Assembly (NCBI RefSeq): GCF_017833295.1
Contig: NZ_JAFIBW010000001.1
Coordinates: forward strand, 434,001 to 498,000
DNA from: Methylobacterium sp. PvR107
Lineage (GTDB): Bacteria > Pseudomonadota > Alphaproteobacteria > Rhizobiales > Beijerinckiaceae
Length of the DNA: 64,000 nt
Direction of reading: 5' to 3'
Shown: positions 5,626-64,000 of the stretch, in pieces
Numbering within the stretch: the stretch's first letter is position 1
Layout: each line of letters begins with the position of its first letter
Made by a program: the position numbers and the translations under genes
Notes under the pieces: model-generated
What the model saw: the letters and a program-made list of their open reading frames with translations, nothing else
The model's database searches: none
Told to the model about the DNA's origin: nothing

Positions 5626-5641
5626 ACCGATTGCAATCGGT
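5626..5641. promoter_or_regulatory. Perfect 16-bp palindrome upstream of the methyltransferase gene
   Basis: ACCGATTGCAATCGGT reads the same on both strands. It lies about 155 bp upstream of the ParB-methyltransferase start, in DNA with no gene. The size and symmetry suit a dimeric repressor operator; no matching regulator is visible nearby. Function is inference. Confidence 0.4.
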
Positions 5642-5795
5642 AGCTGTGCCTCACCAAAGTTTAGCGGCGGCAGCCTTCCACATGCCGCAGCGGCTTCGAC
5701 AATTTCCCCAGGAGCCACGCGCGTCGCGCGAACGGGGAAAGTCGATGGTCGTTGCGCGGTTGCCTTGCCCTCGGTCTCCAATTTGGAGGCCTACA

Positions 5796-7325
5796 ATGCC
5801 TGCATCGACATCAAAGCTTGCGGCGTTAACAGCTCGGTCTAACGCACTCCCTCTCGACAGCGCCCCCCGGATCGCGCTTGGACCGGGCATCGAGGCGCGA
5901 TACGGCCTGTGCCCCTGCAGCACGCTCAAAGCCAACCCGGCCGCCGTTCGCGTTCATCCCAAACAGCAGATCAAGAAGCTCGCACGCGCCATCGAGGTGG
6001 CAGGTCCCCTCACCCCGGTGGTCGTCGACGAGGGCTACACGATCCTCTCGGGCCATGCTCGGGTCGAGGCTGTCCGTGCTGGATCGGAATCGATACCGAT
6101 TGTGCAGGTCTTCGGGCTATCCGAGGCGCAGAAGAGTGCGTTCCTGTTGTCTGACAATCGCATCGGCGAGGATGCGCGGCTCGACCGGCAACGGCTCGCC
6201 AAACAGATCCCGGAGCTGACGATCCTTTTTCAGGAGGCCGGCTTCGAGATTTCCGATACGGGCTTCGAGATCGCTGAACTCGACGCTTTGACCCTCGATT
6301 TCGCCGATCAGATCGGGGCCGATGACGACATCGATCCTGCACTGCTGCAGGAGCCTCTCGTCCTGCGCCCGGGAGACCTGCTTCAGCTGGGAGAGCATCG
6401 CCTCGCCGTCGGCGACGCACGGGATACGTCCCTGCTGGATCGGCTGTTGGCGGGCGTTGCGGTCGAGTGTGCGTTCCTCGACGTACCCTACAATCTCGCG
6501 CAGGCGGAGCTCAGCACGCGCGGGAAGGTGCGGCACCCCGATTTTGCGTTTGCCTCCGGCGAGATGAGCCCAACGGAGTATGTCGCGTTTCTATCCGCCG
6601 CGCTGGGAAATGCGGCGCGCGTCTCGGCTCCGGGGGCCGTGCATTTCGCCTGCATCGATTGGCGACATGTGCAAGACTTGCTCGCGGCGGGTTCCAGCGT
6701 TTACGGCGCCTATCTCAACCTCGTCGTTTGGAACAAGACCAACGCTGGCCAGGGTGGTCTCTATCGCAACCAGCACGAGTTGATCGCCGTATTCCGGGTC
6801 GGCGAGGCACGGCACCGCGACAACGTCCAGATGGGGCGGTATGGCCGCAATCGGTCCAACGTCTGGGCCTATCCGGGCGCCAATGGATTCGGCGCGGGGC
6901 GCTTAGCGAACCTCGCCGCTCATCCGACCGTGAAGCCTTTGCAACTGGTTGCAGATGCACTGAAGGACGTCACCCGCTCGGGAGCGGTGGTGCTCGACAC
7001 GTTCGTGGGCTCCGGCACGACGATCTTGGCCGGGGAGCAGGTCGGGAGGCGGGTGCGAGCCGTCGAGATTGAGCCGCGCTACGCACAGGTCGCGATCCGC
7101 CGCTGGGAGCGGATGACCGGGCGCACGGCGGTCTGTGCGGAGACCGGGGAGAGTCTCGATGATTGGCTTCACGCGCGTACCCGGCGCGTAGATCGGACGC
7201 CACATGACGCGTGCGCTCTGGTGGGCTCGACGGAGGTTAGCGGACCTGCCGCGGCCTCGGCATCGGAGGAGGCACCATCCGCGGCGCCCCCGCCCCGCAT
7301 ACGCATTCGCACACGCGTGCCCTGA
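5796..7325 (+). CDS. ParB-domain DNA methyltransferase (phage-type N4/N6)
   Basis: 509 residues. Residues about 35-130 form a ParB/Srx-like N-terminal domain (VHPKQQIKKLARAIEVAGP, then TILSGHARVEAV and LSDNRIGEDA). The C-terminal half is an N4-cytosine/N6-adenine methylase: catalytic tetrapeptide region AFLDVPYNLAQ (DVPY instead of the usual DPPY), HPTVKPLQL, and the SAM-binding FVGSGTT. Start ATG 5796 is preceded by GGAGG at 5785-5789; the open frame reaches back to 5631 but without such a site. Followed by DUF5681 and TerL genes, the usual prophage order, so it may modify DNA before packaging. Whether the DVPY variant is active is open. Confidence 0.88.
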   Translation: MPASTSKLAALTARSNALPLDSAPRIALGPGIEARYGLCPCSTLKANPAAVRVHPKQQIKKLARAIEVAGPLTPVVVDEGYTILSGHARVEAVRAGSESIPIVQVFGLSEAQKSAFLLSDNRIGEDARLDRQRLAKQIPELTILFQEAGFEISDTGFEIAELDALTLDFADQIGADDDIDPALLQEPLVLRPGDLLQLGEHRLAVGDARDTSLLDRLLAGVAVECAFLDVPYNLAQAELSTRGKVRHPDFAFASGEMSPTEYVAFLSAALGNAARVSAPGAVHFACIDWRHVQDLLAAGSSVYGAYLNLVVWNKTNAGQGGLYRNQHELIAVFRVGEARHRDNVQMGRYGRNRSNVWAYPGANGFGAGRLANLAAHPTVKPLQLVADALKDVTRSGAVVLDTFVGSGTTILAGEQVGRRVRAVEIEPRYAQVAIRRWERMTGRTAVCAETGESLDDWLHARTRRVDRTPHDACALVGSTEVSGPAAASASEEAPSAAPPPRIRIRTRVP

Positions 7326-7746
7326 CAGGTTCATGGGGCGGCACGCGCGTCAAAGCGTTTCTGGCTCTCTACAGAATCCGCATGCACAGGTGCATACCAT
7401 GTCGGGACGCATCGGCGCGCCACAAATTCGAGGGCTCGACGCAAGCGTCGGCCCTGGAGCGATCGACAGTACTTAGCCAAGAATCTGTGCTGTGCTTTAA
7501 GATGTCGCAACCGTGATGGGTTGCGCTTTTGCGAGAAATCTCCCCATTATTGCCGCGTTGAACCTTGTTGAGGGGGTACCAAGACCTAAGCTTCGCTCCT
7601 CTGGCCTGTCGGGAACTTTGCGGCGCACCGCGCAAGCAGCATTCCAAAGGCGTCTGAAACCCCCTCGTTACGGGGGCGAGACGTAATGGGATGTCGATGC
7701 ACGTGGTCTGGGCGCTTCTCGACGCTAATGTGCCGGAGATCTGACC
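7326..7746. other. Intergenic stretch without a recognised gene
   Basis: About 420 bp between the methyltransferase and the small-terminase-like gene. I see no convincing coding region; a short hairpin-like CCCCC/GGGGG pair lies near 7662-7678. A promoter for the terminase genes may lie here, but I cannot place it. Confidence 0.5.
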
Positions 7747-8202
7747 ATGAGCGATAGTGACGACGGTGAGAAGGTTGGCCCTGGGCATCCGCCGCGCAAG
7801 CACCGATTTCAAAAGGGGAAATCTGGTAATCCACGTGGTCGGCCGAAAGGTGGTCTAACTTCAAAATTACTCGATGATTACTACTTTGACGCATTTCTCG
7901 AGAGGGAGGTGTCTATCAACGGCCGAAACGGCCCGGAACGTGCCAACGCCGTCATCGCGATGATGATGCTTTGGCGCCAGAAAGCTCTGAATGGCGATAC
8001 GAACGCTATCGAGAAAATCCTCGATCGCTTGGAACGCCGAGCTGCCGCCGCTCCGAGCCCCGAACTGACACTCACGCCAGATCGGTCCGAGGACGATGAG
8101 GCGATCTTGCGCCATTATCTACGTCCCGCCTCCAAACTGACCCCTGAGGTTGAGCGGCCGGACGACGAGACGAGGAGTGATGAGGAGGGCGACGATGGTT
8201 GA
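7747..8202 (+). CDS. DUF5681 protein, small-terminase-like
   Basis: 151 residues. The N-terminus contains KHRFQKGKSGNPRGRPKGG, the DUF5681 signature. These proteins regularly lie directly upstream of phage-type TerL genes and are presumed DNA-recognition partners of the terminase. The C-terminal third is acidic (RPDDETRSDEEGDDG). The start ATG 7747 has a GGAG about 10 bp upstream. Its end overlaps the TerL start by 8 bp, so the two are translationally coupled. Confidence 0.85.
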   Translation: MSDSDDGEKVGPGHPPRKHRFQKGKSGNPRGRPKGGLTSKLLDDYYFDAFLEREVSINGRNGPERANAVIAMMMLWRQKALNGDTNAIEKILDRLERRAAAAPSPELTLTPDRSEDDEAILRHYLRPASKLTPEVERPDDETRSDEEGDDG

Positions 8203-9643
8203 CCGCGCTCGTTTTCTGAGGGCGCTCCTCCGCCATGAGCTCTCCGCTTTCACTCACCGGACGTTCCAGGCTCTCGAGCCTGGGACACCTTACCAGCACA
8301 GCTGGCATCACGATCATCTCGCTTGGCAACTCAAACGCATCGCGCGTGGCGACATCAGGCGGTTGATCATCAACATGCCGCCGCGATCGATGAAGTCCAT
8401 CGCCGTCTCGGTGGCATTCTCGGCTTGGTTCCTCGGTCACGCGCCGAGCCGCCGGATCATCGCAGTCTCGTACGCCGCCGATCTCGCCCGGAAGCTCTCA
8501 CAAGACACGCGCACCGTGATGGAGAGCGCGTGGTTCCGGGAGCTGTTCCCCGATTGTGCTCTGGTCCCGGGCCGGCAACGCGATATGGAGCTTACCACCA
8601 CCCAGCGCGGCGGCCGGCTGGCAGTCGGGCTCGGCGGCAGCCTGACTGGGCGCGGCGCTGATATCATCCTCATCGACGATCCGATGAAGGCGATCGATGC
8701 CTTCTCGGCAGCCGAACGGCGGCGGGTGATCGAATTTTACGAAGGCACCCTGGTCTCGCGCCTTAACGACAAGACCAACGGCGCGATCGTGATCGTGATG
8801 CAACGTCTGCACGCCGATGATTTGTGCGGGCATCTCCGCGAGCGATCTCCTGAGGATTGGGAGGTGGTGGAGCTTCCCGCGATCGCCGTCCGGGCCGAGT
8901 CGTTTCAGCTGAGCGACAGTCCGGGTGATGTCTACTCGCGGGCGCGTGGTGAGGTGCTCCAACCTGGGCGTGAGCCCCTGGACGTGCTGGAGGGGCTTCG
9001 CCGCCAACTTGGCACTCTGACCTTCAGCGCCCAATACCAACAGGCACCGGTGCCGGCCGAGGGCAACGTGATCCGCCGGGATTGGCTGCGCTTCTACGAG
9101 GATGGGGAGGATCCGGAAACCTTCGAGCGTGTGGTAGTCTCTTGGGATACCGCTTCGACTCTGGGGGAGGCGAGCGACTGGTCCGTCGGCACGGTCTGGG
9201 GTGTGCTGGGCTTAGACTACTACCTGCTCGATATCGTGCGCGAGCGTCTTGAGGCTCCCGAATTGCGTCGAGAAATCGTGAGCTTGAGCCGACACTGGAG
9301 GGCGAGCGCTACCCTGATCGAGAATACGGAGCTAGGGCGTGCCCTCAATCAGGATCTGCGCCGGACCGGAACCTTGTCGACGCTCCTCCATCGCTCGCGT
9401 TACGACAAGGAGGCCCGGCTCCTGGCTCAGGCGGCTCGCTTCGAGGCTGGGCAGGTCCACCTGCCATCGGACGCTCCGTGGCTGGCCGATTACATCGCGG
9501 AGCTGATGGCCTTTCCGAACGGGCGGCACGACGATCAGGTCGATAGCACCTCGCAGGCGCTCGATTATCTGACCGCTCGCGCACTGCCCCCTCCCCCGCT
9601 GCAGCGCCGGAACCCCGTGCGCAGGGATATCGAGCGCCGCTGA
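8195..9643 (+). CDS. Phage-type terminase large subunit
   Basis: 482 residues. The ATPase half has the Walker-A-like segment NMPPRSMKSIAVSVAFSAW and Walker B IILIDDP; the RNase-H-like nuclease half has VVVSWDTAS, and HDDQVDSTSQALDYL near the C-terminus. TerL proteins translocate and cut concatemeric DNA into a capsid. ATG 8195 follows GAGGAGGG at 8181-8188 and overlaps the DUF5681 stop, so I prefer it to the in-frame ATG at 8150. No portal, capsid or tail genes follow within 10 kb. The last 145 codons are repeated at 16626. Confidence 0.9.
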   Translation: MVDRARFLRALLRHELSAFTHRTFQALEPGTPYQHSWHHDHLAWQLKRIARGDIRRLIINMPPRSMKSIAVSVAFSAWFLGHAPSRRIIAVSYAADLARKLSQDTRTVMESAWFRELFPDCALVPGRQRDMELTTTQRGGRLAVGLGGSLTGRGADIILIDDPMKAIDAFSAAERRRVIEFYEGTLVSRLNDKTNGAIVIVMQRLHADDLCGHLRERSPEDWEVVELPAIAVRAESFQLSDSPGDVYSRARGEVLQPGREPLDVLEGLRRQLGTLTFSAQYQQAPVPAEGNVIRRDWLRFYEDGEDPETFERVVVSWDTASTLGEASDWSVGTVWGVLGLDYYLLDIVRERLEAPELRREIVSLSRHWRASATLIENTELGRALNQDLRRTGTLSTLLHRSRYDKEARLLAQAARFEAGQVHLPSDAPWLADYIAELMAFPNGRHDDQVDSTSQALDYLTARALPPPPLQRRNPVRRDIERR

Positions 9644-10866
9644 TGCCATTTCATCAGTGCGGGTTGACCTGCTTCTGCCGGAAGATGCGGATGTTCTCGG
9701 CGTTCGGCGCACCAAATCCAGAACAATTTACAGCAGTGCCCGGATTGGACTGGACTGCTGCTGCGGAAGGAGCGTGAATGGTCGTGCAACGAAGCAGTTA
9801 GCCAGCTGAAGGGCGGCGGGATATTTATGGGCACGCTTGGTTTAAACGGAACTGTCCGTCAGTTCACGCACGCCGTGCGTCAGACCGAGACGAGCGGGGC
9901 GATGATAGGCATCGCGACTTGCGCTGCAGTTGAGGTTTCGACTGAGAACGGCCGCGCGGCCCTAAATTTTGAAGCTTCGGGACGAGACGCTGCGTCGCTG
10001 CGGGTTCTGCACCCCAGCGGCGAGCATAGGGCGAGACGAGCGCCTCCATAACTCCGGGCCGAGGAACCTCGGCCGAAACAGGCATCGTCGTGTTGAGGAT
10101 CGCGTCGCCCCGCAGGCTCATCGAGCCGCACGCGGGGCCAGGGCAGTGGCGGGGCCAGATCCCGTCGCGAGCTCAAGGCGCGCCACTATGCACATCGACA
10201 CCTCCATACAGACCCGCCCCCTGTCCTCGCCTGGTTGGGGAGCACAGTCGCCATCGCGACGCGGGCCAGCATCAGCTGCGTGCGCACGCTGTGCGCTGTC
10301 CCGCTCTCTCCTGGTGTGAGGGCCGGCGATGTCCAATCGTAGCATCTCCTGGGCTGCCGCCCTGCGCGAGTTGAAGGCTGACCGTGCCATCCGGCACCCT
10401 GTGCGCGAGGAGCGCCTGCGCACGAGCGCCGGCCTGCGCGGCGCGCCTGTCCTCGCAATGAGCGCCTGGCGCGGACACTCCAGCCGGCGCTACGTCGTCG
10501 TGGTCCAGCCACTCGACACCCCAGATCTCGTCGTCGAGAGCGCGGCGGTCGTTCTCACCGTGGTCAGGGACGAGCGAGGCCAAGCCTCTATCGTCGGTGC
10601 CCGAGCCTGCGAGGTCGGAGACCCCGGGTTCCTCGGCTGGCTTGCCGCCTGTGCCAAGCTTGGCGCGCGTGAGCTGCATGCCTACCGGTTAGCCGAGACT
10701 GCGCCTGAGCGCTCTGCGATCGCGGCCGACCTCGGCGGATCGATGGCCAGAGCCGCGGCCGGAGCGGCGTGATGATCAGGCGGGAATTCAGCAAGGCCGT
10801 GCAGAGGGCCGCGCTGGCCCGGGCGGACGGGCGCTGCGAGGGCGTGCTCACGGATGGCAGCCGCTG
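9210..10866. repeat. First copy of a long imperfect direct repeat (TerL 3' end to HNH 5' end)
   Basis: 9210-10221 matches 16626-17637 with a constant offset of 7416, and 10219-10866 matches 18956-19602 with an offset near 8736. The copies differ by scattered substitutions and a few short indels. The second copy is split by an IS3 element. The non-genic part, 9644-10328, contains short open frames conserved in both copies, but their differences are largely amino-acid changing, so I do not call them genes. Confidence 0.85.
10329..10772 (+). CDS. Unknown protein of the terminase/HNH module
   Basis: 147 residues, no family recognised. It starts MSNRSISWAAALRELKADRA and has a central beta-rich stretch (SRRYVVVVQPLDTPDLV and AAVVLTVVRDERG), then an Ala-rich helical tail. 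Its stop overlaps the HNH nuclease start (TGATG), implying coupling. A second full-length copy of identical length lies at 19065-19508, also followed by an HNH gene, with mostly conservative differences, which argues that it is a real protein. Its steady position between TerL and HNH suggests a role in DNA handling, but that is inference. Confidence 0.7.
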   Translation: MSNRSISWAAALRELKADRAIRHPVREERLRTSAGLRGAPVLAMSAWRGHSSRRYVVVVQPLDTPDLVVESAAVVLTVVRDERGQASIVGARACEVGDPGFLGWLAACAKLGARELHAYRLAETAPERSAIAADLGGSMARAAAGAA

Positions 10867-11164
10867 TCCATGCGCGCTGCAGGTCGGTCGGTTCCACTAC
10901 GACCACATCGTCCCAGCGGCGCTGGCCGAGGATGCCTCACTGGCGAACTGCCAGGTGCTGTGTCGGCCCTGTCACGCGGCCAAGACGGTGGTGGATGTGG
11001 GCGTGATCGCGCGGGTGCGGCGAGTGCGTGACCGGCACGCGGGCGTCGTCGATCCGCACCACCGGCCGTTGCCAGGCGGTAAGGCCACCCCGTTCAAGCG
11101 GCTGATCGGCGGGGGCGTGGTTTGCCGCAACACGGGCGAGCGATTGGATAGACGCGGCGAGTAG
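10772..11164 (+). CDS. HNH endonuclease
   Basis: 130 residues. Core: RADGRCEGVLTDGSRCPCAL, then YDHIVPAALAEDASLANCQV and LCRPCHAAKT, with paired cysteines for structural zinc and the D-H-I and N-C-x-x-L-C-x-x-C-H arrangement of HNH nucleases. Phage HNH proteins beside TerL often help terminase cut DNA. ATG 10772 overlaps the previous stop; a GTG one codon upstream is the alternative. A truncated second copy is cut by IS21 at 19603. Confidence 0.85.
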   Translation: MIRREFSKAVQRAALARADGRCEGVLTDGSRCPCALQVGRFHYDHIVPAALAEDASLANCQVLCRPCHAAKTVVDVGVIARVRRVRDRHAGVVDPHHRPLPGGKATPFKRLIGGGVVCRNTGERLDRRGE

Positions 11165-11432
11165 AGACATCTGCTGCCTAAGTGTCACGAAGTGTCCCTC
11201 TGTTGCGGCGAGTTCCTTCATTCGATTGCTGGCGGTGGCACGCCGAAATTGACCTGACCGGCTGGCTTTGGACCTAGTTGATTGAGAGGATCAGCCTGGA
11301 CCGAAGGAGTCGGACGAGCCGCGAGGTCAGAAGACGAGCGCGTAGCAGGCTGCGCTAAATCTGCGCCGGATCGGAGGGTAAGAGTTTGGCGTTGACGTGC
11401 AAGGAGGCAGAGATCGCCGAGCAGAGCTATGC

Positions 11433-16073: not shown

Positions 16074-16473
16074 GCCCGAGACCGTCGAGCCGGGCCCAGT
16101 GACACCGTCGGCGGGTGCAGCAGCGGTCGCGCGGCTGGGCGACGTGTTCGTGCTCGGTCGGCACCGGGTGGTCTGCGGGGATGCCCGCGATCCGGCCCTG
16201 GTGGCAGCGCTCATGGGAGCGGAACGTGCGCGCCTGCTCCTGACGGACGAGCCTTACAACGTACCGATCCGCGGGCATGTGACCAGCGGTAACCACGGCG
16301 AGTTCGCGATGGCCAGCGGCGAGATGACCGAGGCGGAGTTCCGGACATTCAACTTAGAGTGGATCGGGACGGCCCTGCCCCACCTCGTCGAGGGCGGCGT
16401 GTTCGGCACCTTCATCGACTGGCGCGGGCTGCACGTGGTTCAAGCTGCTCGCAATGCCGTGCCGGCGATCTGA
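16039..16473 (+). pseudogene. Fragment of a second ParB-type methyltransferase
   Basis: The frame reads ILLDDEPETVEPGP, LGDVFVLGRHRVVCGDARD, LLLTDEPYNVPIRGHV and FASGEM-like AMASGEMTEAEF, then FGTFIDWRGLHVV before an early stop. This is the middle of a methylase related to the one at 5796, with catalytic tetrapeptide DEPY. The ParB domain, target-recognition part and FxGxG motif are missing. It overlaps the end of the SNF2 frame by about 35 bp. It belongs to the decayed second packaging module. Confidence 0.8.
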
Positions 16474-16625: not shown

Positions 16626-17059
16626 GCTTAGACTACTACCTGCTCGATATCGTTCGCGAGCGTCTCGAGGCACCCGAACTGCGTCGAGAAATCGTGAGCT
16701 TGAGCCGGCACTGGAGGGCGAGCGCTACCCTGATCGAGGATACGGAGCTCGGGCGTGCCCTCCATCAGGATCTGCGCCGGACCGGAACCTTGTCGACGCT
16801 CCTTCATCGCTCGCGCTACGATAAGGAGGCTCGGCTCCTGGCTCAGGCAGCTCGCTTCGAGGCTGGGCAGGTCCACCTGCCATCGGACGCTCCGTGGCTG
16901 GCCGATTACATCGCGGAACTGATGGCCTTTCCGAACGGGCGGCACGACGATCAGGTCGACAGCACCTCGCAGGCGCTCGATTACCTCACCGCTCGCGCGC
17001 TGCCCCCTCCCCCGCTGCAGCGCCAGAACCCCGTGCGCAGGGATATCGAGCGCCGCTGA
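16626..17059 (+). pseudogene. Truncated second TerL copy (C-terminal 145 codons)
   Basis: Begins inside the nuclease domain at LDYYLLDIVRERLEAPELRR and runs to the same stop as the intact TerL (9643), with few changes (for example ENTELGRALNQ becomes EDTELGRALHQ). There is no ATPase domain and no ribosome site. Upstream 16474-16625 is unrelated DNA. The homology continues past the stop to 17637. Confidence 0.9.
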
Positions 17060-17687
17060 TACAGTTTCATCATTGCGAGTTGACCTGCTTCTGCCGGAAG
17101 ATGCGGATGTTCTCGGCGTTCGGCGCGCCAACTCCAGAACAATTTACGGCAGTGCCCGGATTGGACTGGACTGCTGCTGCGAAAGGAGCGTGAATGGTCG
17201 TGCGACGAAGCAGTTAGCCAGCTGAAGCGCGGCGGGATCTTTATGGGCACGCTTGGTTTAAACGGAATTGTCCGTCAGTTCACGTACGCCGTGCGTCAGA
17301 CCGAGACGAGCATGGTGACGATAGGCATGAAGATCTGCGCTGCGGCTGAAGTGCCGACTGAGAACGGCCGCGCGGCGCTTAACTTTGAAGCTCCGGGACG
17401 AGACGCCGCGTCGCTGCGGGTTCTGCACACCAGCGGCGAGCATGGGGCGAGACGAGCGCCTCCATAGCTCAGGGCTGAGGTACGCCGGCCGGACCGGGCA
17501 TCGTCGTCATGAGGATCGCGTCGCCCCGCAGGCTCATCGAGCCGCATGCGGGGCCAGGGCAGTGGCGGGGCTGGATCCCGCCTCGAGCTCAAGGCGCGCC
17601 ACTATGCACACCGACACTTCAATACAGATCCGCCCCCTGAACCGCCCCGGGTTTTCCGGAGGCTCCAACTCTTGAGAGACTGGAGCC

Positions 17688-18916
<1,229 letters not shown>

Positions 18917-19064
18917 CCCAAACCAACCGGCCTCGGGAAAACCCGGGGCGGTTCACCCTGTCCCCGCCGTGTCGGGGAGCGGAGTCGCCATCGCAACGCC
19001 GGCTAGCATCAGCTGCACGCGCACGCTGTGCGCTGTCCCGCTCTACCCTGGCGTGAGGGCCACG

Positions 19065-19508
19065 ATGTCCAATCGCAGCATCTCCTGGTCTTCCGCCCTG
19101 CGCGAGCTGAAGGCTGACCGTACCATTCGCCGCCCTGTGCGCGAGGAGCGCCTGCGCACGAGCACCGGCCTGCGCGGCGCGCCCGTCCTCGCGATGAGCG
19201 TGTGGCGTGGGCTCTCGAGCCGGCGCTACGTCGTCGTGGTCCAGCCACTCGACACCCCAGATCTCGTGGCCGAGAGCGCGGCGGTCGTTCTCACCGTGGC
19301 CAGGGACGAGCGAGGCCAGGCCTCTATCGTCGGTGCTCGGGCCTGCGAGATCGGAGACCCCGGGTTCCTCGGCTGGCTTGCCGCCTGTGCCAAGCTTGGC
19401 GCGCGTGAGCTGCATGCCTACCGGTTGGCCGAGACTGCGCTCGAGCGCTCTGCGGTCGCAGTCGACCTCGGCGGATCGATGGCCAGAGCCGCGACGGGAG
19501 CGCCGTGA
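19065..19508 (+). CDS. Second copy of the unknown terminase-module protein
   Basis: 147 residues, same length as the protein at 10329 and largely identical, with changes such as AAALREL to SSALREL and HPVREERL to RPVREERL. The reading frame is intact although both neighbours are damaged (TerL truncated, HNH cut by IS21), so it may survive by chance or because it is useful on its own. An IS3 element ends 109 bp upstream of it and may have replaced its native promoter. Confidence 0.65.
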   Translation: MSNRSISWSSALRELKADRTIRRPVREERLRTSTGLRGAPVLAMSVWRGLSSRRYVVVVQPLDTPDLVAESAAVVLTVARDERGQASIVGARACEIGDPGFLGWLAACAKLGARELHAYRLAETALERSAVAVDLGGSMARAATGAP

Positions 19509-19602
19509 TGATCAGGCGGGAGTTCAGCAAGGCTGTGCAGCGGGCCGCGCTGGCCCGGGCGGATGGGCGCTGCGAGGGCGTACTTACGGATGACAGCCGA
19601 TG
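19508..19602 (+). pseudogene. HNH endonuclease 5' fragment cut by IS21
   Basis: Starts at the same overlap (TGATG) as the intact gene and reads IRREFSKAVQRAALARADGR then CEGVLTDDSR before IS21 begins at 19603. The histidine-containing core is lost. Confidence 0.9.
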
Positions 19603-19732
19603 TGTAGCGCGGCGATCTGGATGAGATGTCAGCGACAATCAGGATGAGTGACCGGTGTCGCGGCGGGTTGATGATGAGCGGGTCGATCGACCGGCGCAAG
19701 GTGGCGTCGGGTCAGGTTCGTGTCGCGGAGCG

Positions 19733-22119
<2,387 letters not shown>

Positions 22120-22260
22120 TCACCAGACGACGTGCCCCTGAAGGTCACGCCGACGCCGATCCGATGCCTCCGGTCGGGCTCTGCCCTCCTTGCGTCATCA
22201 GATCGGCGGTTCCTCTCATCTTGATTGACGCGCTGGTCTCATCCTGATTGCCGCGCTGCA

Positions 22261-31341: not shown

Positions 31342-31715
31342 AGGGTTTGTGGTTTTATGATTCAGGGCCGCCCTTTACACCGTGGAGGCGGCGATGGCGG
31401 ACCTGTTCTGGCTCTCGGATGAGCAGTGGGCGGTGATGGCCCCGTTCATGCCCAAGGATCAGCCCGGACCGGAGCGGAAGGACGACCGGCAGATCATCTC
31501 CGGCATCCTGCACGTGCTCACCTCGGGCTGCCGCTGGCGTGACTGCCCCGCCGCGTACGGGCCTCGCACGACCGTCTACAACCGCTTCCAACCGCTGGTC
31601 CCGGGGTGGCTTCTGGACGGCGATGTTGGCGGCCCTGGCCAAGGCCGGCTGGTCGGGCGAGGCGGCTGCCATCGACAGCACCTACGTGCGAGCACATCGC
31701 TCGGCGCACGGCGGG

Positions 31716-31969
31716 AACGTATGGCCCGCCCCGTCCGCAAGTGGCTCTGGTTCCGCTGGTCTGGGCAGTCTGCACAAACGTATCCGGCCTTCCGGCGAGC
31801 CGTTGGCCAAGATGGAGATCCGCGCGTCCTGGGCCTCATAAAGGGGTCGGCGTCGAGCGCCATTTGCCAGCCAAAGGCTTCCAGAACACCGATCGACTGT
31901 CAGGCCATCTTCCTCGCACCACACGCAGACATCGGAAGGCCGGCGAAGGCTTCGCCGACCAAGCTTGGT
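31716..31969 (-). ncRNA. Candidate bridge/seek RNA region of the IS110 element
   Basis: Long non-coding end of the element, downstream of the transposase gene. AACGTAT, the first bases of the element's left end, recurs at 31777-31783, and ATAAAGGGG, from the right end (33071-33079), recurs at 31838-31846. IS110-family elements encode an RNA whose loops pair with the element ends and target; repeats of both ends inside the non-coding region fit such a guide. No structure was computed, so this is inference. Confidence 0.35.
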
Positions 31970-32998
31970 TCAGGCGGCGATGACAGCCGCCTCGTAAACG
32001 CGCTCATGGCGCAGGAGCGCCCAGACAGTCCTGGCCATCTTGGCGGCCAGCGCGACCACGGCTGTGTTGGCGTGCGCCCGCGCCAGAAGCCCGCGCAGCC
32101 ACTGCCCGAGGCGGGTCTCACTCTGCTGGAGCGTCGGCATCGCGGCCCGTGCACCCTGGATCAGCATCTTGCGCAGGTACTTGCTGCCGCGCTTGGTGAT
32201 GCCGACGAGTTTAGGCCGTCCGCCGGTCGTGACCTGCCGCGGCACAAGGCCGAGCCAAGCTGCCAGATCACGTCCGCGCGCGAAGGTCGTCACGTCGCCG
32301 ATGGCGGCCACCAGGGCGGTCGCGTTGAGCGCGCCGATACCGGGGATGGTTGTCAGCCGACGTGCACTCTCATCCGAGCGGGCCTGCTCGCTGAACTCGG
32401 CATCAAGGGCAGCGATGCGCTGATCGAGGAACTGCCAGCGCTCGCGCACGTCCGTCACGAGGGTCCGCATACGGGGTGTGAGATCCGTGGCTGCCTCGTC
32501 GTCGAGCAGGCTTGCGAGGCGGGCGGCCAATCTGGCACGACCCTGCGGCACGACATGGCCACGCTCCAGCAGGATGGCGCGGATCTGGTTCATCAGGGCT
32601 GTCCGCTCGCCGACGAGCTGATCGCGGACCCGGTGCAGGGTCTGCATGTCGAGTTGCGCTTCCGACTTGAGGGCCACGAAGCGCATGGTCGGACGCGTCG
32701 CCGCTTCGGCAATCGCCTCGGCATCACGGTCGTCGTTCTTCTGAGCCTTGACGTAGGGGCGCACGTACTCGGGCGACATCAGCCGAACGGTGTGCCCCTG
32801 GGCTGCCAGCGTTCGACCCATGTGATGGGCACCGCAACACGCCTCCATCGCCACAACGCAGGACGGCAACTGCGCACCGAAGGCGATCACGCTCTCACGC
32901 CGCATGCGCCGCCGCAGCACAACACGCCCGGTCGCGTCCAGCCCGACGAGGCTGCAGCTGTTCTTGCCCAGGTCGATCCCCAACACCGTGATCGGCAT
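31970..32998 (-). CDS. IS110-family DEDD transposase, copy A
   Basis: 342 residues. RuvC-like DEDD core: Asp in VLGIDLGKNS, Glu in VVAMEACCGAHH, Asp pair in KNDDRDAEAIAEA. C-terminal Tnp domain with helix-hairpin-helix LTTIPGIGALNATALVAAIG and the conserved serine in ITKRGSKYLRKMLIQGARA. ATG 32998 begins PITVLGIDLGKN; a longer upstream open frame extends into flanking DNA and is rejected. Confidence 0.95.
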   Translation of the reverse strand: MPITVLGIDLGKNSCSLVGLDATGRVVLRRRMRRESVIAFGAQLPSCVVAMEACCGAHHMGRTLAAQGHTVRLMSPEYVRPYVKAQKNDDRDAEAIAEAATRPTMRFVALKSEAQLDMQTLHRVRDQLVGERTALMNQIRAILLERGHVVPQGRARLAARLASLLDDEAATDLTPRMRTLVTDVRERWQFLDQRIAALDAEFSEQARSDESARRLTTIPGIGALNATALVAAIGDVTTFARGRDLAAWLGLVPRQVTTGGRPKLVGITKRGSKYLRKMLIQGARAAMPTLQQSETRLGQWLRGLLARAHANTAVVALAAKMARTVWALLRHERVYEAAVIAA

Positions 32999-33797
32999 CG
33001 TCTCGCTCCGTTCCTCATCTCCGCTACCCTGCCAGCCTAGCAGGGCAGCCCGGTGAGGGGCGGGCCATCCATAAAGGGGGGCGCAGGCCCAGGCCATCGG
33101 CCCGTCGCGCGGCGGCCAGACGACCAAGGTCCATGCGCTCACCGATGTCCTCGGCCGGCCCGGCGTGCTCCTGCTGACGCCCGGCAACGCCAGCGATGTC
33201 ACCGCCGCTCCGGCCGTCCTGGCCGAGGCGCCGGGCCGGATCCGCCGCCTGAGCGCCGACAAGGGCTACGACGCCGATTGGCTGCGCGCTGACCTACGCA
33301 GAAGCGGCATCATGCCGGGCAAGCGCAGCCGCAAGAGAAGGATCCATCACGACAAGCGGCGCTACCGGGAGCGCTGGCGCATCGAGGCGACGTTCAACCG
33401 CCTCAAGGACTTCCGCCGCATCGCCACCCGGTACGACAAGCTCGCCCGCAACTACGCCTCAGCCGTCGCCCTGGCTGCAATCATCGCCTTCTGATGCTGA
33501 TCGAGTCCAAACCCTAAAGCCGCGACCGTTGGTGTTGCGACACCCTCCGAGAGCGAGGGCGTGTTGGCGAGCCGGCGACGACCAGCCTATGTCCCATCCC
33601 TGCCCTCATCCTGAGGTGCGCGCGGCAGCGGGCCTCGAAGGCGGGCTCCACCGTAATGGGCACCTCACATTCGCTCGGCGTCAGACCTGATTCACTTCGG
33701 CTAAGCTTGACAGCCCGTACCGTCCCGAACGCAACGATTCGGCAGCGCTCAGCCTGATAGATTAAACCGACGTACATTTCTCCAAAAGCGATCTTCA

Positions 33798-57531: not shown

Positions 57532-57725
57532 TCACTTCCGGCTGCCGCTGGAGCGATTGCCCGCGCGCCTACGGACCGCGCACCACAATCTACAACCGCT
57601 TCAATCACTGGTCGCGCCGCGGCTTCTGGAAAGTGACGCTCGCCGCGCTGGCCAAGGCCGGATGGGCCGGCGACGCAGCCGCCTTCGACAGCGGTTACGT
57701 TCGCGCTAACCGCTTGGCCCATGGC

Positions 57726-59094
57726 AACGTATGGCCCGCCCCGTCCGCAAGTGGCTCTGGTTCCGCTGGTCTGGGCAGTCTGCACAAACGTATCCGGCCT
57801 TCCGGCGAGCCGTTGGCCAAGATGGAGATCCGCGCGTCCTGGGCCTCATAAAGGGGTCGGCGTCGAGCGCCATTTGCCAGCCAAAGGCTTCCAGAACACC
57901 GATCGACTGTCAGGCCATCTTCCTCGCACCACACGCAGACATCGGAAGGCCGGCGAAGGCTTCGCCGACCAAGCTTGGTTCAGGCGGCGATGACAGCCGC
58001 CTCGTAAACGCGCTCATGGCGCAGGAGCGCCCAGACAGTCCTGGCCATCTTGGCGGCCAGCGCGACCACGGCTGTGTTGGCGTGCGCCCGCGCCAGAAGC
58101 CCGCGCAGCCACTGCCCGAGGCGGGTCTCACTCTGCTGGAGCGTCGGCATCGCGGCCCGTGCACCCTGGATCAGCATCTTGCGCAGGTACTTGCTGCCGC
58201 GCTTGGTGATGCCGACGAGTTTAGGCCGTCCGCCGGTCGTGACCTGCCGCGGCACAAGGCCGAGCCAAGCTGCCAGATCACGTCCGCGCGCGAAGGTCGT
58301 CACGTCGCCGATGGCGGCCACCAGGGCGGTCGCGTTGAGCGCGCCGATACCGGGGATGGTTGTCAGCCGACGTGCACTCTCATCCGAGCGGGCCTGCTCG
58401 CTGAACTCGGCATCAAGGGCAGCGATGCGCTGATCGAGGAACTGCCAGCGCTCGCGCACGTCCGTCACGAGGGTCCGCATACGGGGTGTGAGATCCGTGG
58501 CTGCCTCGTCGTCGAGCAGGCTTGCGAGGCGGGCGGCCAATCTGGCACGACCCTGCGGCACGACATGGCCACGCTCCAGCAGGATGGCGCGGATCTGGTT
58601 CATCAGGGCTGTCCGCTCGCCGACGAGCTGATCGCGGACCCGGTGCAGGGTCTGCATGTCGAGTTGCGCTTCCGACTTGAGGGCCACGAAGCGCATGGTC
58701 GGACGCGTCGCCGCTTCGGCAATCGCCTCGGCATCACGGTCGTCGTTCTTCTGAGCCTTGACGTAGGGGCGCACGTACTCGGGCGACATCAGCCGAACGG
58801 TGTGCCCCTGGGCTGCCAGCGTTCGACCCATGTGATGGGCACCGCAACACGCCTCCATCGCCACAACGCAGGACGGCAACTGCGCACCGAAGGCGATCAC
58901 GCTCTCACGCCGCATGCGCCGCCGCAGCACAACACGCCCGGTCGCGTCCAGCCCGACGAGGCTGCAGCTGTTCTTGCCCAGGTCGATCCCCAACACCGTG
59001 ATCGGCATCGTCTCGCTCCGTTCCTCATCTCCGCTACCCTGCCAGCCTAGCAGGGCAGCCCGGTGAGGGGCGGGCCATCCATAAAGGGGGGCGC
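57726..59094 (-). mobile_element. IS110-family element, copy B
   Basis: Identical to copy A from its first base (57726 corresponds to 31716) to 59130, and likewise inserted in orfB of an IS5/IS427 element right after the first-Asp region (…RLAHG). The left flank CATGGC differs from copy A's CACGGCGGG. The candidate guide-RNA region corresponds to 57726-57979. Confidence 0.88.
57980..59008 (-). CDS. IS110-family DEDD transposase, copy B
   Basis: 342 residues, identical to the copy at 31970-32998, with the same DEDD and serine motifs (VLGIDLGKNS, VVAMEACC, DDRDAEAIAEA, ITKRGSKYLRKML). ATG 59008. Identity across the whole element implies recent transposition or gene conversion. Confidence 0.95.
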   Translation of the reverse strand: MPITVLGIDLGKNSCSLVGLDATGRVVLRRRMRRESVIAFGAQLPSCVVAMEACCGAHHMGRTLAAQGHTVRLMSPEYVRPYVKAQKNDDRDAEAIAEAATRPTMRFVALKSEAQLDMQTLHRVRDQLVGERTALMNQIRAILLERGHVVPQGRARLAARLASLLDDEAATDLTPRMRTLVTDVRERWQFLDQRIAALDAEFSEQARSDESARRLTTIPGIGALNATALVAAIGDVTTFARGRDLAAWLGLVPRQVTTGGRPKLVGITKRGSKYLRKMLIQGARAAMPTLQQSETRLGQWLRGLLARAHANTAVVALAAKMARTVWALLRHERVYEAAVIAA

Positions 59095-59173
59095 AGGCCC
59101 AGGCCATCGGCCCGTCGCGCGGCGGCCAGACCACCAAGATCCACGCACTCACCGATTTGCTCGGCCGCCCCTG

Positions 59174-60803: not shown

Positions 60804-61464
60804 CGCCTGCAATCCGACATTGTCCGGCCGTGTTATAGGCATGCTACGGGTGAGAGGCTGTTGCCCTTAGGCCATAGGCGATCGGTAATGAAGTTTAGGC
60901 CGCCCGGTCCGCCGGTGCGGGCCTTTTCGTCTTGCGAAACCGAACACTCTGTCGAGCAACGGATCGATAACCCCAATGCTTCAGGGCTTCTGTAGCGATC
61001 GGCCGATGGTCGAGCGCCGGAATAGCAGCTCCGTGGCCGTTTCACACGGTCAGTCACGATGCGGCCTCGCCGGCGCAATCACACAGACTCGAGCGAGGCT
61101 GAGGACATCGCAGTCTCCCATCCGAAACCTCTCAGATAGGAACCTCAACCTGCAACTGTAATGTTAGTTGTGTGGTTGCGGAACGTCGTTGGGATGCGGC
61201 GCGTTGGGCCATCAAAGCCTATGCGTGGCGGTTCGACGGTGTGCGCCGCCGTGCTGCTAGGAGGGCCCGCTGATGCTCGCTATCCATCCTCAGGCCCGCA
61301 CAACCCCAGCCGTGCGCGCCGAGTGCAGCGCGGCAATCAGGATGAGACCAGCGCGTCAATCAAGATGAGAGGAACCGCCGATCTGATGACGCAAGGAGGG
61401 CAGAGCCCGACCGGAGGCATCGGATCGGCGTCGGCGTGACCTTCAGGGGCACGTCGTCTGGTGA

Positions 61465-63851
<2,387 letters not shown>

Positions 63852-64000
63852 CGCTCCGCGACACGAACCTGACCCGACGCCACCTTGCGCCGGTCGATCG
63901 ACCCGCTCATCATCAACCCGCCGCGACACCGGTCACTCATCCTGATTGTCGCTGACATCTCATCCAGATCGCCGCGCTACAGCCAGCCAGACCGTGCCAG

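Follow-up and report, generated by a model that had tools for sequence, protein, structure and literature searches.

Passages of a 2024 essay (PMC11389934) call the transfer mechanisms of many genomic islands enigmatic for decades and set out the families of phage satellites, among them the phage-inducible chromosomal islands (PICIs), which resemble the islands described below in being integrated, in having no structural genes and in carrying an integrase together with packaging functions. Excerpts of PMC6002521 present the PICI-like element (PLE) of Vibrio cholerae as a satellite island with a large serine recombinase, and excerpts of PMC9203015 report that most variants of phage WO of Wolbachia have a recombinase and a methylase/ParB gene; both likenesses extend to our islands. 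In Staphylococcus phage TPWB-09 the packaging genes follow the order two methylases, a short unassigned gene, the small terminase subunit (TerS), the large terminase subunit (TerL) and the portal. Here we describe a locus in which a TerL gene stands in similar company with no portal behind it, located in a 64,000-nucleotide stretch of Methylobacterium sp. PvR107 (bases 434001-498000 of a 6.36 Mb single-contig genome; hereafter the window). Our literature search found no paper on the trio of genes treated below or on terminase-bearing islands with DUF2924/DUF3489.

The window carries a module of five co-directional genes, all of them real according to open reading frames and to Pfam and PHROG searches: a ParB-like/N6_N4 methylase, a DUF5681 protein, TerL, a 147-residue protein (P147) and an HNH endonuclease (Table 1). 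An initial annotation, made from the letters of the window, had listed five genes in one direction with these identities, and the domain and PHROG matches bear this out, P147 having neither. The gene coordinates likewise confirm the overlaps that it noted between DUF5681 and TerL and between P147 and HNH. Its statement that no portal or capsid gene follows holds for the families searched: the genome has two PF04860 (portal) and two PF05065 (capsid) matches, about 1.55 Mb or more from the module. The true start of the methylase is probably near position 5796, because most homologues align from residue 38 or later, and for TerL, where Table 1 gives the earliest start codon in frame, the true start may lie some 30-45 bases further on. 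We read the window, with a probability of about 0.5, as holding the Methylobacterium member of a capsid-less, satellite-like packaging module that belongs to genomic islands and not to phages. The presence of the module, its lineage, the selection acting on it and the mobility of related islands in genus g74 rest on sequence data; excision, marking, packaging and delivery are steps that we infer.

Table 1. Features of the module, of its partial duplicate and of a distant recombinase-like gene (positions in the window).
Feature	Position	Strand	Evidence
ParB-like N-terminus + N6/N4 DNA methylase, first gene of the trio	5631..7325	+	PF01555 E 6.6e-23; PHROG_498 E 1.6e-86; ParB-like PHROG_620
DUF5681 protein, small-terminase position	7747..8202	+	PF18932 E 4e-17; PHROG_26239
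TerL	8150..9643	+	PHROG_38 E 1.1e-108; PF17289 (Terminase_6C) E 2.2e-14
P147, 147-residue protein	10329..10772	+	without Pfam or PHROG match
HNH endonuclease	10769..11164	+	PF01844 E 2.8e-6; PHROG_333 E 5.8e-17
Fragment of a different ParB-methylase	16099..16473	+	PHROG_498 E 1.5e-19
TerL C-terminal part in duplicate	16626..17059	+	93% DNA identity to 9210-10223
IS3-type insertion splitting the duplicate	17640..18955	+	rve + HTH_21 domains in 18011-18916; duplication gap
Second P147 copy	19065..19508	+	90% protein identity, no internal stop
HNH start, severed by inserted element	19505..19603	+	97% protein identity over 33 codons
Large serine recombinase-like gene, 688 residues	22413..24479	-	phmmer to solved YokA recombinase, E 4e-7

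The core of the module is the ParB-methylase/DUF5681/TerL trio which, judged by genome comparison, is a conserved unit across Alphaproteobacteria. With the window TerL as query, matches were obtained in 36 of 199 genomes of a family sample (E 0.001), 53 of 397 of an order sample (1e-20) and 32 of 385 of a class sample (1e-60); the loci taken further were mostly the best-scoring ones of each search and not a random draw. Relatives of DUF5681 and of the methylase adjoin TerL in 39/39 contexts built around chosen TerLs, with the methylase upstream of TerL in 38 and downstream in one. The trio might be a domesticated DNA-processing module that serves island segregation, replication or recombination with no protein shell, as the ParB-like N-terminus of the methylase and the recombination genes near the trio in genus g11 would allow, but only the trio is constant among the recurrent gene families of the 39 contexts, and we consider this the least probable of the readings discussed here.

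The sequences 3' of TerL were searched for portal genes by tblastn in 96 chosen loci, and the 91 with 900 bases or more in that direction were counted (the window's own locus is one of them, and the TerLs from genomes G305 and G384 are identical). A portal followed TerL in none of the 62 trio loci. The other loci consisted of 17 with a portal and no trio, one with the methylase only and a portal, five with DUF5681 but neither an upstream methylase nor a portal (L026, L033, L076, L079 and L081), and six with neither trio nor portal (L085, L090, L129, L190, L195 and L209, with L085 and L129 having no upstream sequence). Portal queries were supplied by 13 of the 18 portal-labelled loci, and the remaining five (L088, L115, L116, L117 and L206) were found without a query of their own; the label of L096 was assumed, its query having no PHROG portal match at 1e-10, and a 14th query was guessed from Acetobacter phage phiAO1, whose locus was counted as one without a portal. 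Among lower-identity TerLs (27-33%), a PHROG portal was present directly 3' of TerL in nine of ten checked.

A genome-wide profile test was applied to 82 TerL matches, 56 at 39% identity or more and 26 below; partial matches, including the short family f2 TerLs, and some of low identity had been set aside, and several of the contigs are short. None of the 56 has PF04860 within 20 kb, the nearest match being 47 kb away in a genome whose TerL has a stop (G017), and the test has a weak control, a near portal being found in just 2 of the 26 lower-identity TerLs, several of which use other portal families. The nearest PF05065, the capsid family searched, is 51 kb away (G017 again), and no VirB4 (PF03135) lies within 450 kb of the 56 TerLs, the nearest being at 451 kb. 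Screens of neighbouring genes (68 and 59 proteins) gave recombination genes, transposases, an integrase and host metabolism among the matches listed, and no portal or capsid family among the 25 of 60 and 25 of 47 families listed; the tail-fibre-like matches of four members of the Methylobacterium screen were equalled by collagen-repeat matches. In this sample, neither the portal and PF05065 capsid that mark a tailed prophage near its TerL nor the structural cluster of a gene transfer agent was observed. The recurrence of capsid-free clusters across genera, which the initial annotation had proposed to look for through P147, is a property of the methylase-DUF5681-TerL trio and not of P147. A split gene transfer agent, in which the trio packages DNA for capsid genes clustered at another site of its genome, could draw on the PF04860 portal present elsewhere in 33 of the 43 trio genomes and on the PF05065 capsid in 32; however, eight of the 43 have neither family (G013, G131, G193, G235, G265, G502, G555 and G557, three of them 83-85% complete) and the g74 trio sits on mobile islands, which makes such an arrangement very improbable.

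Among the 94 TerLs of a phylogenetic tree, one branch (SH-aLRT 97) separates all 65 trio rows from the 18 portal rows; the portal-bearing row nearest to the trio TerLs is L206, from another family. Internal stops are absent from 53 of the 56 TerLs. A simple pattern search over 37 TerLs recovered Walker A in 36, DDP in 35, SWD in 29 and DDQVD in 33, and the window TerL keeps its ATPase and nuclease motifs (PPRSMKS, IDDP, SWDT and DDQVDS). For five close TerL pairs, all taken from Methylobacterium loci free of capsids, the ratio of nonsynonymous to synonymous substitution rates (dN/dS) was 0.07-0.19 (dS 0.08-0.96). Between the window and L027 it was 0.088 for TerL and 0.156 for the methylase; between the window and more distant loci it reached 0.44 and 0.53 at dS above 1, and in the close pair L029/L032 (dS 0.04) it was 0.375 for the methylase. 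The trio TerL is, as far as alignments and the sampled tree go, a lineage of its own, mostly intact and under purifying selection in the measured pairs.

These data bear on convergent prophage decay, according to which alphaproteobacterial phages repeatedly lost their structural genes and left a functionless early or packaging segment behind. Such decay could account for the phage-type Erf and exonuclease genes beside the g11 trio, for the decayed duplicate in the window, the damaged trio copies and a broken TerL piece in G384, and for a sister as close as the portal-bearing L206. We nevertheless hold it to be improbable, since no portal occurs in the 62 trio loci, one lineage spans many families with mostly intact frames and low dN/dS in close pairs, the TerL matches in phage records reach just 37-40% at best among those listed, with a single DUF5681 match by tblastn (although more distant ones exist), and islands have moved recently with the unit intact. 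The module is not one dying prophage, because no portal was detected in any of the 62 loci, the trio TerLs share a single branch, the frames are mostly intact and dN/dS is low in close pairs.

The initial annotation had argued for the same conclusion from an independently decayed second copy with the same gene order at 16.0-19.6 kb. Its observation was right for the first module and wrong for the second, because the latter consists of a duplication and a foreign methylase fragment. Window 9210-10223 recurs as 16626-17639 with 93% DNA identity over 1014 bases, and 10219-10867 recurs as 18956-19603 with 91% DNA identity. The duplicate is truncated, split by an insertion sequence and limited to the TerL C-terminus, P147 and the first 33 HNH codons. 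The methylase fragment upstream belongs to another methylase, being 91% like the methylase of L026 and 49% like the nearest trio methylase query. Two independent modules were rejected on these grounds. Between the copies, dN is 0.048 and dS 0.167 for P147, and dN is 0.009 and dS 0.161 for the TerL end. The duplicate is severed at 19603 by a 2.66 kb element (IS21-type by eye); 19603-22260 is present again, inverted, at 61324-63981, the two 2658-base copies being 100% identical and bracketing approximately 39 kb of the window. Additionally, a 1.64 kb segment occurs twice in the window (31518-33161 and 57532-59171) with 96.5% identity.

P147, whose intactness in both copies was the other argument of the initial annotation, does not carry the weight placed on it, its second copy being a duplicate and the protein standing outside the core. 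The best of its 90 relatives are from Methylobacterium, and so are those found at 70% identity or more: all 17 loci of one search belong to this genus, as do all displayed organism-naming sources in another. L020-L033 are the 14 Methylobacterium loci whose P147 reaches at least 70% identity; in all of them HNH lies directly 3' of P147, reading in two pieces in L021. Eight of the 14 also hold methylase-DUF5681-TerL; in seven of these the order is P147-HNH-methylase-DUF5681-TerL, with P147 upstream of the methylase and not 3' of TerL, and in L027 the trio is upstream of P147-HNH. No TerL was present within the 13-20 kb read in L020, L024, L025 and L030, and none of L020-L033 was matched by a portal query. 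Polysaccharide genes, including those for a sugar transferase and an epimerase, are among the neighbours in these loci. In comparisons of the window with 13 loci each, dN/dS was 0.09-0.17 for P147 and 0.05-0.17 for HNH; in the pair L029/L032 (dS 0.05) it was 0.55 for P147.

A P147 match was obtained in 94 of the 199 family-sample genomes, mostly one per genome and many of them weak, and a 49% paralogue is encoded in the window genome between an acyltransferase and a DUF2125 gene (L017, G000:C1:5119684-5120091). Searches with P147 gave no match in phage records, one match (44%) in plasmids and one in viral contigs. The last is on a contig of M. tarhaniae, also held in the viral collection, where the P147 relative is accompanied by a helix-turn-helix protein and an HNH gene; this suggests, and no more than suggests, that P147 belongs to phage early regions. 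A 233-residue protein of the same contig, taken by eye for Erf, was dropped, its match having only E 0.002 over 35 residues. The predicted P147 structure (mean predicted local distance difference test score, pLDDT, 82) matched no PDB fold at E 0.001 or better. P147 as the core of the system was rejected, as it is found with Methylobacterium loci in varying positions, and the P147-HNH pair is a Methylobacterium accessory of the trio module. The proposal that the window holds a packaging or DNA-processing unit and not one dying prophage thus stands through the recurrence of the trio; its two original arguments, the second module and P147, do not. Short TerLs of 365-368 residues were also seen with DUF5681, a different methylase and P147-HNH (L026 6309-7531 and L033 6318-7537), and in family f2 (G346 and G476) TerLs with frames of about 400 residues match only over their first 310 or so residues.

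Besides an HNH gene, the recurrent partners of the trio are an Erf annealing protein with a RecE-type exonuclease and a cassette of DUF3489, DUF2924 and a large serine recombinase. Erf and the exonuclease were found in three of four examined g11 loci and in two IMG/VR contigs, and the window HNH is 32% like the HNH adjoining the trio in g11. In L103, L105, L107/L108, L113 and L114, genes for Erf, the RecE-type exonuclease and HNH are convergent to TerL and form a compact packaging-plus-recombination unit. A gene for DUF2924, which is the partner of the large serine recombinase, was no farther than 8 kb from 23 of the 56 TerLs at 39% identity or more, versus one of the 26 below (Fisher p 5e-4). 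A tyrosine integrase was present in the neighbourhood of one trio locus.

The ends of trio-bearing elements could be defined in genus g74, where G305 and G384, single-contig genomes of two species, have tandem elements at tRNA-Gln. The junctions have in common CAGCCACC (T or C) AGTCG, which follows either the tRNA end or a conserved right end; the pattern also matched at G305 1267212 and G384 805988, and both sites, having no conserved ends, were dropped. The elements measure 66.5, 68.3 and 40.1 kb in G305, and 39.8, 66.5 and 19.9 kb in G384. All three complete elements of G305 carry the recombinase, DUF2924, methylase, DUF5681 and TerL; the 19.9 kb element of G384 has just a TerL piece with stops. 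The 40 kb element (39.8 kb compared) is 99.9-100% identical between the two genomes, except for approximately 0.24 kb extra in G305, and the 66.5 kb element is 99.6% identical, whereas the element order is swapped and the aligned flanks are 79-91% identical. Because the islands are 99.6-100% identical and the flanks only 79-91%, the g74 islands, as these genomes indicate, moved between species recently with the unit intact. In four fetched g74 loci, one of which is the same G384 locus, the recombinase and the tRNA-Gln are 0.3-1.3 kb apart, and module parts at 70-88% identity were found in 9 of 15 other g74 genomes searched.

The contents of the 40 kb element were scanned with 24 proteins (23 inside the element and one just outside), the longest called gene and a few short ones being excluded. 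The families listed include metal efflux, OprB, a TonB receptor and TerB domains; TerL apart, no head, tail or conjugation family was found among the 25 of 34 Pfam and 25 of 36 PHROG families listed, and VirB4 had no match in either genome. When 20 kb of the island was compared with plasmids, metal-efflux genes and short matches were returned.

The term "mobile" used in the initial annotation is borne out for the relatives with a serine recombinase in another genus and not for the window's own copy, which may have lost its mobility. The recombinase-like gene at the foot of Table 1, which has 26% identity to a large serine recombinase query of the DUF2924-linked type (E 2e-7), is a possible integrase of the region. 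The nearest DUF2924 match in the genome is 3.29 Mb from the module, no tRNA was found in the window, and a search for short repeats around the module yielded nothing useful. The genome contains a single DUF5681 match. A dispersed repeat of approximately 125 bases (window 11250-11373) lies directly 3' of HNH, with whole or partial matches of 77-89% at seven other places in the genome.

Among 50,697 phage records, a tblastn search at E 0.001 gave one DUF5681 match. It is in MT839917, an unverified contig of 5.4 kb whose source is described as human faeces, Mexico, and which holds a serine recombinase, DUF2924, methylase, DUF5681 and TerL and ends just 3' of TerL. Were this contig derived from DNase-treated particles, it would be a first hint of packaging; a Mexican virus-particle study exists (PMC8361208, PMC8844717), and no link between it and MT839917 was found. 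More distant DUF5681 phage proteins exist beyond this match. The trio TerL has no match at 60% or more in the phage records. Phage phiAO1 (L190, LC644971), which has sulfurtransferase, peroxiredoxin, superoxide dismutase and catalase genes among its phage genes, was considered as a packaged island on account of the host-type genes 3' of its TerL and was rejected, as it has a baseplate gene and many unnamed genes of phage size.

DUF5681 occupies the place of a small terminase subunit, because TPWB-09 has TerS between the methylases with the short gene and TerL. A PP...GxSGNPxG motif is conserved in 26 aligned DUF5681 sequences, and the best of its named viral matches is a DUF5681 protein of Leptospira phage LE4 (E 8e-3). 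A Salmonella phage study, the one paper that the literature search listed for DUF5681, places such a protein in the structural proteome (PMC8954984). TerL had no match among PDB sequences. In the packaging module that we favour, the large serine recombinase would excise the island, the methylase (via its ParB-like part) and DUF5681 would mark and recognise its DNA, TerL would cut this DNA and pump it into the procapsids of a helper phage, and the delivered island would integrate at tRNA-Gln. Lineages in which no adjoining recombinase was found, namely Methylobacterium with P147-HNH and g11 with Erf-Exo-HNH, would enter by homologous recombination. A broader version, to which we give somewhat less than an even chance, is that capsid-less terminase islands are ancient and widespread, with their own motor and a self-marking methylase, with shells borrowed from any phage, and with entry by a serine recombinase at a tRNA or by homologous recombination with Erf/Exo/HNH or P147/HNH.

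The strongest rival is a terminase-derived restriction system, in which the methylase marks self, DUF5681 binds DNA and the TerL translocase-nuclease destroys unmarked DNA; selection would come from phage defence and a capsid would be unneeded. The methylase adjoining DUF5681-TerL in all 39 chosen contexts would fit this, as would the motor and nuclease motifs kept in most of the 37 TerLs, the lack of a nearby capsid, persistence under purifying selection in loci where no adjoining recombinase was found, and the Mrr-like and Wadjet JetA-like neighbours of two trio TerLs (L109 17374-18321 and L162 2350-3777, respectively). However, TPWB-09 has its methylases ahead of TerS-TerL-portal, so that a methylase belongs naturally among packaging genes, and transfer is the better match for the strong association with an integration cassette, although defence is carried on islands too. 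We regard restriction as unlikely.

Several points weigh against the capsid-less packaging module itself. No packaged DNA, helper or pac site has been demonstrated, and islands of 40-68 kb would need a large helper capsid. The role of DUF5681 as small terminase is deduced from gene position, and its low-confidence model (mean pLDDT 76, predicted template modelling score 0.42) matched no PDB fold at E 0.001 or better. The absence of portals concerns known families, and TerL is near the contig end in several cases; the TerL tree was built by a quick procedure and has some long branches. Stops interrupt three of the 56 TerLs (G017, G265 and one of G534), and the methylase is in pieces in G017, G198b and L160 and short in G049. 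Of 74 DUF2924 matches, 51 are not near a TerL of this kind (23 are), many trios (in Methylobacterium, in g11 and on a Sphingobium plasmid) lie among host genes with no recombinase found adjoining, and element ends were resolved in just one genus.

The data describe a terminase lineage, found without capsid genes, that one genus links to 40-68 kb islands whose ends are defined and whose transfer between species is fresh. They also show that an isolated bacterial terminase need not be the scar of a prophage. A trio on mobile islands hints at an unrecognised travel route for such islands which, if true, would explain how large islands move between species without conjugation or capsid genes, and the question of island transfer becomes testable by deletion of a single gene.

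Compared with the known systems, the trio elements share some features and differ in others. PICIs measure about 10-20 kb. The trio islands, at 39.8-68.3 kb for complete trio-bearing elements, lie outside this size; they carry TerL with ParB-methylase and DUF5681, a large serine recombinase with DUF2924/DUF3489, and cargo such as metal efflux, and no helper has been demonstrated for the 40-68 kb islands. They agree with PICIs in being free of capsid and tail genes, for the searched families and for the partly listed scans of one element, and in the integrase and attachment sites present on the g74 islands; the window has just its distant serine recombinase-like gene, and no attachment sites were identified there. 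The capsid-forming PICIs (cfPICIs) have capsid genes of their own and integrative conjugative elements have a VirB4-type ATPase, whereas the trio elements have no PF05065 near and the trio loci no PF03135 within 450 kb. The trio elements differ from PLE in having a terminase module and in occurring in Alphaproteobacteria; the two are likened by description and not by sequence. Phage WO, set apart likewise by description, has head and tail modules, unlike the trio islands. The packaging module of TPWB-09 has the same order of methylase, small-terminase position and TerL, the TerLs being 34% identical over 92% of the query, but it continues into portal and head genes, as no sampled trio locus does. 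With some satellite features present and a size outside theirs, we class the trio elements as working like a satellite and not as members of a named satellite family.

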